Source: Gloeocapsopsis dulcis (lineage in GTDB: Bacteria; Cyanobacteriota; Cyanobacteriia; Cyanobacteriales; Chroococcidiopsidaceae). Taken from it: 64,000 bases of DNA. Each line of letters starts with the position of its first letter. Positions within the stretch are counted from its first letter, which is position 1. The position numbers and the translations under genes are program-made. Shown here piece after piece: positions 29,703 to 45,404 of the stretch. The stretch is taken from assembly GCF_032163395.1 (NCBI RefSeq), contig NZ_CP119968.1, forward strand, positions 4,676,001 through 4,740,000, in the 5' to 3' direction. The notes under the pieces were generated by a model. The model was not told the origin of the DNA. It saw nothing but the letters and a program-made list of their open reading frames with translations, and made no database searches.

Positions 29703-29777
29703 AAACAAACCTTAGTCCAGAGCGAGAGATGGTTGAGGACATCTTGGCAATCCTTTACTGCTTCTCCTCTCGACTCT

Positions 29778-30926
29778 ATGGGTTGCGAAAATATAAATCT
29801 CAAATCAAGGAAGATTCGGATTTACCCCAACCCGGAGCTAAATAAAGTCTGGCGCAGGTGGTTAGCCGCTTGTCGTTATTGTTTCAATCAAGCAATTGAT
29901 TATCAGCGTAAGAATGGACGCATTGGTAAGCGCAAACTGCGTAACGTCATTATGCAATCTAACTTACCACAATGGGTCAAAGACTCCCCTTGTCACATTC
30001 GACAGAACGCGATTTTTGACGCACATCAAGCATTTTCCGCTAGTCGGGATGCCAAGTTTAGAAGCTGTCGAGATCGTCAACAGCCGATTAAGTTCAATGA
30101 CTGTAATTTCAGCCAGGGAATGTGGTATCCGAAATTAGTTAAAGGTTTGAAATTTATTGCTTCAGAACTAATCCCCACCAGTTGCGAATATTGTACACAA
30201 CTGACTTTCAGCAAGGGACAATGGTTTGCCATATTTCCTATTCATACTGAAACAACTAAACTCGATTTAGATGGCGTAATTGCCCTTGACCCAGGCGTAC
30301 GAACGTTTCTAACTGGGTTTGACGGACATCGATTTATTGAGTTCGGGCGGGGTGACATTGGGCGGATTACTCGCTTGTGCCAACACCTAGACGACTTGAT
30401 TAGTCGTGTTCGTCTTGCTCTATCCCGACAGCGCAAGCGGATGAGGCAAGCTGCCAATCGATTAAGACTGAAAATTAGAAACTTAATTGATGAAGCTCAT
30501 TGGCAAATTGCCCACTACCTAACCCACAACTATCGAATTATTTTTCTGCCAACCTTTGAGACTAGCCAGATGGTAAGCCGAGCTAGGCGGAAGATTCGTT
30601 CAAAGACGGTGAGGGCAATATTAGGGTGGGCGCATTATCGATTCGAGTTATTTCTCGACCATCAAGCACGGACTACTGGTTCGACGGTGATTAAAGGTTC
30701 GGAAGCCTACAGTAGTAAGACCTGCACTCATTGCGGTCACATCCATCAATCCTTGGGCGGTTCCAAGATATTTAAGTGTAAATCCTGTGGCAACACGTTA
30801 CCTAGAGATTTTAACGGTGCTTTGGGCTTCATGCTCAGGGCTTTGAGGGATTCCTCCTTCACTGTCAGTGATGATGGTGTTGCTATCGCTGCATTGTCCA
30901 GTGATTATCCGTATTGTGTCGCGTAA
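29778..30926 (+). mobile_element. tnpB: TnpB-type RNA-guided nuclease gene, no TnpA partner
   Basis: IS200/IS605-family TnpB of 382 residues, starting at ATG 29778; the frame is open from TTG 29733 but those residues do not match the family. The N-terminal domain starts RKIRIYPNPELNKVWRRWLAACRYCFNQAI. The RuvC nuclease residues are intact: Asp in ALDPGVRTF, Glu in LPTFETSQM and the last Asp in LPRDFNGA. A four-cysteine zinc finger, CTHCGHIHQ and CKSCG, is complete. No TnpA lies within several kilobases, so it is a lone accessory element that cannot move by itself. Its downstream flank lacks the GAATCCC/GTGTCAA-type right end that is seen at 38.0 kb; a stem at 30961-30989 is the only local candidate for the guide-RNA 3' region. 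Confidence 0.88.
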
Positions 30927-37585: not shown

Positions 37586-37738
37586 GTGTGAAGTAAACAA
37601 GCTAGAAGAATGTAATTGATGCTACTAATAAAGAAAAAATTAAGAGTTGCTATACGCTTACAGATTTTTATCTTTTTTTCGCCAGAATACCCTCAGTTTA
37701 CTGATGGGATGAATGGCGCTTTGTGTTAAAATCCACCT

Positions 37739-38072
37739 AGAGGTAAGGTAATCAACCTCTCTAAAAACCTAGTAACCTAAAAGGTTCACACTGTACCTTG
37801 ACAATTGAATCTATCGGGTTCTACTTTGTTGTTCTAGGAGTACATAAGTGCTGTGTACACCTGAAAGTAGGTAAAGGATTCACAGGAACTAGACGACCAG
37901 TATTGGCTTTGTGCCAGATCAAACAAACATTGTAGAAATACAACTACCGAGGGGCACTCGGAAAGTTACGCTTGGGGAAAGAACCACCTCTGCATCAGTA
38001 ACGCAAGGCGAAGACTGTAAGTGGACTTGTTGAACCAAGAATCCCCCGATTTATCGGTGGGAGTGTCAAGAT
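37739..38072 (+). mobile_element. IS200/IS605-type right end with omega-RNA-like sequence, no tnpA or tnpB
   Basis: The 3' end reads GAATCCCCC, a stem, then GGGAGTGTCAA. The stem CCCCCGAT/ATCGGTGGG (one bulged T, eight pairs) lies at about 38042-38060. That arrangement matches the right end of IS605-family elements, where the guide-RNA scaffold (omega RNA/reRNA) ends and the guide begins with the bases after TCAA. Upstream are GTTAC/GTAAC and CCGAG/CTCGG stems and GGACTTGTTGAACC, also scaffold-like. A stem AGAGGT/ACCTCT at 37739-37760 may mark the left end, giving an element of about 335 bp, but this boundary is weak. No coding frame lies inside. It looks like a non-autonomous copy or a relic that lost tnpB. 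The downstream bases GATAAATACTCCCCGTAC would be its guide. Confidence 0.65.
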
Positions 38073-38256
38073 AAATACTCCCCGTACTTGGCGTGTTTAG
38101 CAAGATATCTGTCTGTGGTGTCATGAGTTTGGCTTGAGCTGATATGATAAGTTTAATATTAAGTAAAAGTTACAAGCTCAAAATTTAGCTATAGACAAAA
38201 CTTCCTCGCTTAGGTCAGCGAAGCAATTCAGGTCGTATTTAGGAGCAATCGATTCA

Positions 38257-44558: not shown

Positions 44559-45404
44559 CTACAAAACATCACGCACTTCTGTAATTGTACTTGCTACAAC
44601 TATGCTGCGTAAAATTGCTTGCAAGCGTTCTAAATCAGAAACTTGGTTAATTTGGAGCATTAATTCTAAGCCCTCAGTGCCAAATTTCACCTCTAAAATA
44701 GTTGCAATGTTAGATAAAATTTCCTCTCTTCGTCCGCGTTCTACGCCACGCTGCTCAATTTCCTGATACCAAGGTGACTCGCGTAATACAGCCATATCCC
44801 ACCTCATAATCTCTTGGACTAACGTACTCTCTAGCACAAATGTCGCAAAAAATGCCAGTACTGTCTCTAATTGATTTAACTGTTTGTCCGCACGTAACAT
44901 CTGCAATGCTGCTCTAATTGTAGACTTGTTCTCCCCTCCTTGGAGAATCGGCACAAAGGGTAATAACGAGGGTAACGGTTGGTTAAAGACAATATTGACA
45001 TCAACCTCCCACAAATTAATTACGCGATAATCTTGATGTGCTTGCAACCCAGCTATGTTTGAAGTAAATCGACTTGGTATTTGCTCATCACTTATCTTAA
45101 GAATGTTGATTAATACTGGGTAAGTTGGTAAGTGATATTTCTCTTCTGCTAAGGCGGCATAAGCACGCATCCAACGCGGCATTTGCGATGAAGGACGCAG
45201 TTGTAATTCGTTGAGAACTAGAAATTCACCATATTGTTGGCTGTCAACACGGATTAACACATCACTTTCGCGGCTAATCCACTGAAATTCAGAATTGAGA
45301 ATTTCTCCGGCTGTGATGTCGGGGAGTTGTGTGACCCATTTTACCCAGTTGTCGGGTGCGAGACTAATTAACTTTTTGGTACTGACATCGGCGCGTTTGA
45401 CCAT
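44559..45404 (-). CDS. Rpn-like protein with PD-(D/E)XK-type N-terminal half and DUF4351-like C-terminus
   Basis: A 281-residue protein of the large cyanobacterial Rpn/DUF4351 group of putative nucleases and transposase-like proteins. The N-terminal half has WVKWVTQLPDITAGEILNSEFQWISRESDVLIRV and GEFLVLNELQLR. The D in SDVL and the E-x-Q of NELQ fit the PD-(D/E)XK nuclease pattern. The C-terminal ~60 residues (EEILSNIATILEVKFGTEGLELMLQINQVSDLERLQAILRSIV) match the DUF4351-like tail. Known members of the Rpn group promote recombination. A truncated reversed-neighbour copy lies at 44107-44312. Function here is unproven; codon use is not unlike neighbours. Confidence 0.75.
   Translation of the reverse strand: MVKRADVSTKKLISLAPDNWVKWVTQLPDITAGEILNSEFQWISRESDVLIRVDSQQYGEFLVLNELQLRPSSQMPRWMRAYAALAEEKYHLPTYPVLINILKISDEQIPSRFTSNIAGLQAHQDYRVINLWEVDVNIVFNQPLPSLLPFVPILQGGENKSTIRAALQMLRADKQLNQLETVLAFFATFVLESTLVQEIMRWDMAVLRESPWYQEIEQRGVERGRREEILSNIATILEVKFGTEGLELMLQINQVSDLERLQAILRSIVVASTITEVRDVL

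Follow-up and report, generated by a model that had tools for sequence, protein, structure and literature searches.

A family of small cyanobacterial IS200/IS605-type elements carrying a predicted TnpB-type guide RNA and seemingly no protein gene

Loci that specify a guide RNA without a nuclease are known from stand-alone, trans-acting IscB omega-RNAs and from HEARO elements. For TnpB, guide RNAs are described as the 3' portions of the nuclease's own transcript (PMC8612924, PMC10278001), and TnpB with a cis-encoded reRNA is described as cutting the empty donor site (PMC8612924, PMC11870625). A pseudoknot beside the guide is reported to be conserved among TnpB and Cas12 guides (PMC10097598), and RAGATH-18 RNA is identified as the reRNA of IS607 TnpBs, co-occurring only with these (PMC11061315). 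Type II MITEs of Anabaena sp. 90 are characterised as small, multi-copy and without matching IS ends, some of them interrupting ORFs (PMC3542288).

Here we describe a locus of Gloeocapsopsis dulcis lying in what we call the window, the whole stretch of 64,000 nucleotides that was analysed. It carries a complete non-autonomous IS200/IS605-type element of 398 bp (Table 1), which belongs to a family of tiny mobile elements of cyanobacteria that seem to contain a structured guide RNA alone and no protein gene. Judged from sequence, members of the family share IS605-type ends and a conserved -10-like box, are inserted 3' of TTAY and have spread in multiple copies; their predicted RNA combines a new pseudoknotted 5' domain with a TnpB omega-RNA scaffold running up to the guide boundary. 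We infer that this RNA is transcribed and is used by TnpB in trans.

Table 1. Positions of the element, its predicted RNA and its flanking sites in the window
Feature	Position	Strand	Basis or detail
TTAT target / predicted TAM	37668..37671	+	directly abuts the left end
Whole element	37672..38069	+	left end aligns with that of L038 (tnpB element, own genome); homology to congeners is back at 38070
Left-end imperfect palindrome, CGCCAGAATACCC..GGGATGAATGGCG	37680..37718	+	sequence; alignment with left end of L038
Extended -10-like box, TG-T-TAAAAT	37724..37732	+	motif counts in 89 copies
5' RNA domain with two pseudoknots	37738..37892	+	covariation; 155 nt
5'-terminal H-type pseudoknot	37739..37770	+	37739-37743/37756-37760 with 37746-37749/37767-37770
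Second pseudoknot	37806..37886	+	37806-37812/37876-37882 and 37822-37827/37864-37869, crossed by 37860-37863/37883-37886
TnpB-type omega-RNA scaffold (3' module)	37941..38069	+	model R2, 117.4 bits (R2 built partly from the window copy); last 129 nt of the RNA
Loop GGCA of guide-adjacent pseudoknot	37953..37956	+	pairs with TGTC, 38064-38067
Right end: GAAT, hairpin, TCAA	38039..38069	+	read from sequence
GAAT	38039-38042	+	right end
Right-end stem/hairpin	38043-38061	+	right end
GGGAGTGTCAA	last base 38069	+	after right-end stem
Predicted 16-nt guide = chromosomal flank	38070..38085	+	directly after right end

From left to right, the TTAT target is followed by the hairpin of the left end and an extended -10 box, then by the sequence of a predicted RNA, about 330 nt long, and by the hairpin of the right end with TCAA. 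Among the copies, homology extends upstream of the interval first annotated (37720-38080) into the left-end hairpin. Homology to the congeners G001 and G002, compared by eye, stops at the TTAT and resumes directly beyond the right end, and the left end (37672-37718) aligns with the left end of L038, a tnpB element in the same genome. A first-pass annotation of this DNA had proposed an orphan IS605-type right end; the GAAT, the stem and the terminal motif of that end were confirmed, as was the GGACTTG...GAACC stretch upstream of it, while the end itself, placed at 38072, proved to lie three bases earlier. It is not an orphan: the left end, the -10 box, the 5' RNA domain and the completeness of the element go beyond that annotation, which had not placed the locus in a mobile family. 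GAAT and TCAA correspond to the right-end guide and cleavage site of IS608. At the left end of the window copy GAATA precedes the hairpin, and the simple target/guide code considered below is unreadable there. The annotation was borne out in that no nuclease gene is present: no ORF of at least 60 aa was found between the end of cinA (37585) and the start of the type II dehydroquinase gene (38430). At the same ORF length the element encodes neither a Y1 TnpA nor a TnpB and is thereby not an autonomous IS200/IS605 element.

For the window copy, a search turned up no clean empty site. In G001 and G002 the two flanks are separated by 27 bp that are missing from the G. dulcis genome, and the end of these 27 bp (TTAAAATCC, CTAG) resembles the -10 region of the window; TTAAAATCC..CTAG (window 37726-37740) is present in element-free congeners too. 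The insertion could have been other than simple, the site could have been altered later, or part of 37726-37740 could be host-derived. A promoter-like stretch, GCTTGCCAYTATAATTAAAATC, lies between cinA and the dehydroquinase gene in five element-free relatives (G001, G002, G004, G010 and G014), where it is conserved; in the window it is not intact (at about 37672) and it may have been replaced by the element.

The stretch recurs widely. Its own genome holds three further copies, with identities of 80, 79 and 72%, together with shorter matches, several of which adjoin tnpB genes. Matches of some extent were found in 18 of 39 sampled relatives, seven of them (nearly) full length, and a search with a motif of 20 specified bases recovered at least 116 stretches in GTDB genomes; taken together, these recurrences lie far beyond chance. 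Among the matches listed, 78 of 80 titles are cyanobacterial and two are metagenome-assembled genomes labelled otherwise (L104, L126). Two plasmid records contain the motif, in partial form, and viral contigs gave no exact match to it. The collected loci comprise 117 distinct copies, of which 90 have their 3' end complete, 17 are truncated where the locus stops and 10 show no recognisable 3' end. A covariance model of the 5' domain, R1, matched in 21 of the 194 genomes that were sampled from the class, the own genome included, 14 of them at E <1e-9 (E-values of this model and of R2, the model of the 3' module, are rough). One genome has at least 16 R1 copies, per-genome counts being lower bounds because 16 candidates were scored in each.

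Several variants were also observed. In one genome (G020) five candidate copies showed a 5' part only, but C141, C201 and C499 run into contig ends and C485 begins at one; C167 is the fifth. A short stand-alone RNA of about 200-300 nt, found at L234 (G174), at L134 and L140 (both Gloeomargaritales) and at L096, retains the sequence of the 5' pseudoknot and lacks most of the second domain; G174 yielded seven weak R1 matches, five of them of equal score. There are also divergent relatives with a similar plan, two of which, L232 (G057) and L246 (G032), end in TGTCAC and not TGTCAA; G057 gave 14 weak R1 matches, one of them inspected here.

Mobility of the family is well supported. Anabaena azotica carries ten copies, near-identical by eye, each in different flanks; all ten end in TCAA, and TTAT stands at the left edge of all nine with that edge in view. 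At L097 one of these copies, 423 bp long, interrupts an ORF, the flanks of which join without target duplication to give 308 codons without a stop, and the joined product is identical to that of window ORF 44559-45404 at 157 of 293 aligned residues (54%) across the junction. Left ends were surveyed in the 140 distinct copies whose upstream sequence was long enough; 48 showed a readable GGGTnnAAA hairpin and 92, the window copy among them, were unreadable by this rule. TTAYC lies near the left edge in 45 of the 48, within a scanned stretch of up to 28 nt, compared with 4.9% of background 22-mers. Target and hairpin guide co-vary in these 48 left ends, which come from related copies and are not 48 independent events: TTAC is accompanied by AAAG in 26, TTAT by AAAA in 21 and GTAT by AAAA in one, with an edge rule slightly looser than that of the TTAYC count. 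We take this co-variation to be the code by which IS608 TnpA recognises its left cleavage site. The family shares with non-autonomous IS200/IS605 elements the near-terminal hairpins, insertion 3' of a tetranucleotide without target duplication, and complementarity between guide and cleavage site (AAAG with TTAC), and with PATEs and MITEs it shares mobility, a length too short for a transposase and ends like those of a known element.

Upstream of the RNA, TATAAT is matched at four or more positions in 88 of 89 copies (background 48%) and at five or more in 60 (background 8.8%). The extended motif TGnTAnnnT is present in 48 of the 89, its background being 2% of 25-mers. These counts point to a putative promoter of the element's own that would drive its RNA. 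For the RNA itself two alignments were made, A1 and A2, for which 39 and 40 sequences were picked by hand from 54 and 45, respectively, that had a suitable length. Structures came from the same alignments (RNAalifold plus covariation), towards which the percentages of paired cells lean, and shuffled and slid-structure controls were run. The 5' domain contains 26 pairs in five helices with 93.7% of cells paired, and its covariation of 0.380 compares with 0.157 after shuffling and at most 0.091 for slid structures. Helices 1 and 2, which form the H-type pseudoknot, are paired in 79.5% and 100% of cells; helix 1 is the weakest of the domain, and three of the four pairs of helix 2 never vary. The second pseudoknot (helices 3-5) has 13 pairs changed on both sides and figures among the top covariation pairs. 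Further pair types in the 5' domain showed no excess over shuffles (31 against 29.8). The window copy scores 137.2 bits with R1, like other copies, and R1 was found beside tnpB at none of 77 loci, 47 in the own genome and 30 in seven others; nor did the domain match any Rfam family.

In the 3' module 95.9% of cells are paired and covariation reaches 0.430, against 0.170 in shuffles and at most 0.108 in slid structures. The GGCA/TGTC pseudoknot is paired in 40 of 40 sequences, the last pair being A-U in 37 and a compensatory G-C in the three of the form GGCG/CGTC, and the other three pairs being invariant. In a wider set of 90 copies GGGCA is combined with TGTCAA in 69 and GGGCG with CGTCAA in three, while 14 have more than one loop motif and four have none. 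Covariation was also assessed on 58 non-redundant copies drawn from 73 of the main type, while 16 other complete copies out of the 90, which have ends TATGTCAA, were left aside, and strong pairs appeared in both halves of the RNA. Two hallmarks of TnpB omega-RNAs are present, a pseudoknot that pairs the bases just before the guide and a scaffold homologous to the RNA at the 3' end of tnpB, and the omega-RNA homology of the 3' module is well supported.

Comparison with Rfam returned nothing at gathering score in the whole window. With the limit relaxed to E 10, three matches to the element appeared, all below threshold: RAGATH-18 (RF03064; 37971-38041), whose 23.1 bits against a gathering score of 44.9 speak against membership; HPnc0580 (37932-38045; 19.8 bits against 37), which is an IS605-linked RNA; and Tombus_3_IV (37894-37946). 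The covariance-model search that the first-pass annotation had proposed as a check gave matches, none of which reached its gathering score. No intron model matched the element at E up to 10, and an intron reading was therefore dropped. Across 20 loci, comprising 14 stand-alone copies and six TnpB loci, the only hits were to tRNA and CRISPR-DR58, both at L229 and outside the element. The CRISPR-DR58 hit is a single repeat match (1903-1939; 42.8 bits, gathering score 38) a few hundred bases upstream of the stand-alone copy.

The G. dulcis genome (G000) has 48 matches to TnpB (PF07282), 47 of them over the cut-off, and five to Y1 transposase, two of these with an internal stop; TnpB is thus in strong excess over Y1 TnpA (48 versus 5). 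R2 had stand-alone copies as its only input and was searched against all 48 TnpB loci. At L191, the locus of the window TnpB and the element, both R1 and R2 match only the element, and the TnpB-like ORF 7-8 kb upstream (29733-30926) is of another kind with no R2-type RNA beside it, in agreement with its earlier attribution to a different element. Among the other 47 loci, R2 matched on the 3' side of tnpB in 26 at E up to 1 and in 12 below 1e-10. The scaffold annotated as omega-RNA-like is therefore of a kind found in cis beside tnpB genes, and the own genome does contain tnpB elements whose right end and scaffold match. A tree was made of 34 TnpB proteins, taken from this genome and from six further ones; nine of the ten full-length proteins with a strong cis R2 fall in one clade (100/100), and the tenth, L029, lies outside it. 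The tree carries a warning that long branches meet. Three TnpBs of the own genome (L022, L028, L189) have D-E-D motifs by pattern. A left end of the same type, by eye, is present at five of 13 R2-bearing tnpB loci (L035, L036, L038, L282, L294).

Stand-alone copies are rarely found near TnpB, since only three of 130 loci, nearly all with such copies, contain a stretch similar to own-genome TnpBs (21 queries at E 1e-8, by which distant TnpBs could be missed). In seven genomes with stand-alone copies that were searched for TnpB, a cis R2 accompanies TnpB in six, and four (G028, G033, G047, G196) have a member in the clade; in G126 no cis R2 was seen beside TnpB at the four places examined of 13. 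R2 matched in 34 of 36 hand-chosen genomes. All 19 that carry stand-alone copies are among them, but so are 15 of the 17 that lack such copies, and for this reason its co-occurrence is weak evidence of a TnpB partnership.

In its own genome the window guide has no other site at one mismatch and one at two, and its 28 sites at up to three mismatches show no clear excess over the 24 of a control, counts that would be expected for homing and not for regulation. Most guides differ between the collected copies. Guides shared by different records were seen for L081/L144 and L161/L181, and nearly so for L121/L127/L142; these are either retained orthologous insertions or conserved guides.

We consider it probable that the family consists of non-autonomous IS200/IS605 elements with a guide RNA as their sole recognisable cargo, which depend in trans on TnpA for movement and on TnpB for service. 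The element would be excised and inserted as single-stranded DNA by a Y1 TnpA whose gene lies elsewhere, and the element's own promoter would give an RNA reading into the flank, the sequence of which would serve as guide. Other elements in the cell would provide a TnpB of the matching clade, which would bind the 3' module, and TnpB with this RNA would cut the empty donor site (TTAY plus flank), whereupon repair from a sister copy would restore the element. The 5' domain would most likely protect or mature a transcript that no tnpB mRNA precedes, and this is the least certain step. Use of TnpB in trans is argued mainly because the interior structure persists although TnpA should not need it. 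The further proposition, that such guide-RNA-only transposons form a new selfish class which parasitises its relatives' TnpA for movement and their TnpB for guide-directed homing, with a dedicated RNA domain and promoter to yield guide RNA without a nuclease mRNA, seems to us evenly balanced.

Persistence of the interior also bears on whether these are ordinary MITE- or PATE-like deletion derivatives, in which TnpA would need nothing but the ends and the omega-RNA scaffold would be a functionless passenger. The ends alone should suffice for TnpA, and the interior has been lost or replaced in some copies (L180 (196 nt), L078, L100, L155, L171), but compensatory changes have kept the interior paired across many genera, the copies have a conserved -10-like box and the 5' domain occurs at no tnpB locus tested; we think this reading unlikely, although PATEs are such transposase-free IS605 derivatives (PMC3119063). 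A different, unrecognised protein acting in trans, with the 5' domain as its platform, might be the partner of the RNA in place of TnpB. Such a partner would accord with the absence of the domain beside tnpB at all 77 loci and with the unlinked position of the stand-alone copies, yet it is decidedly improbable given how closely the 3' module and its guide-adjacent pseudoknot match one TnpB clade.

The first-pass annotation had also entertained a relic, and a dead remnant of a formerly complete tnpB element would explain the missing nuclease gene between the ends. The left end is present, however, the same architecture recurs in dozens of copies, and the R1 and R2 scores (137.2 and 117.4 bits, the latter from a model built partly from this copy) are comparable to those of other copies; with compensatory pairing across many genera and near-identical copies in different flanks, a relic is very improbable. 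We give least credence to a host-domesticated regulator, whose guide would bring TnpB, or a relative that is nuclease-dead, to a different target in the chromosome. A few sets of copies from separate records do have a guide in common, but guides mostly differ from copy to copy and that of the window has no other site in its own genome beyond chance, so that this reading is extremely improbable.

If the favoured reading of a guide-RNA element served in trans is correct, an RNA-guided retention mechanism can itself be parasitised, and trans use of TnpB guides becomes directly testable. The element would also offer a new natural omega-RNA architecture, and TnpB guide repertoires would be underestimated where they are sought only beside tnpB. 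Among the titles, abstract openings and passages of the literature searched, we found no description of a stand-alone TnpB guide-RNA element; this, together with the lack of any Rfam match at gathering score, suggests novelty for a guide-RNA element of TnpB type that combines a promoter-like box of its own with an extra 5' domain.

The closest described systems each share part of this plan. IS200/IS605 elements of the IS608-like kind with tnpB have the same ends, TTAY target and GAAT/TCAA right end, and likewise an omega-RNA scaffold with guide-adjacent pseudoknot and the flank as guide; the family differs from them in lacking tnpA and tnpB and in possessing the promoter-like box and the extra pseudoknotted 5' domain. 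The stand-alone IscB omega-RNAs and HEARO elements, likewise guide-RNA loci without their nuclease, differ in that the family has a TnpB-type scaffold, transposon ends on both sides and the new 5' domain. RAGATH-18 and HPnc0580 resemble the scaffold below their Rfam gathering scores, and whereas RAGATH-18 is reported to co-occur with IS607 TnpBs only (PMC11061315), the ends of the family are of IS605 type. Type II MITEs of Anabaena sp. 90 are alike in being small multi-copy elements that sometimes interrupt ORFs (PMC3542288). The PATEs (palindrome-associated transposable elements) of Haloquadratum are similarly transposase-free and multi-copy, with near-terminal palindromes of IS605 type; no structured guide RNA is mentioned for them in the passages cited (PMC3119063), whereas the interior of the present family is a conserved RNA.
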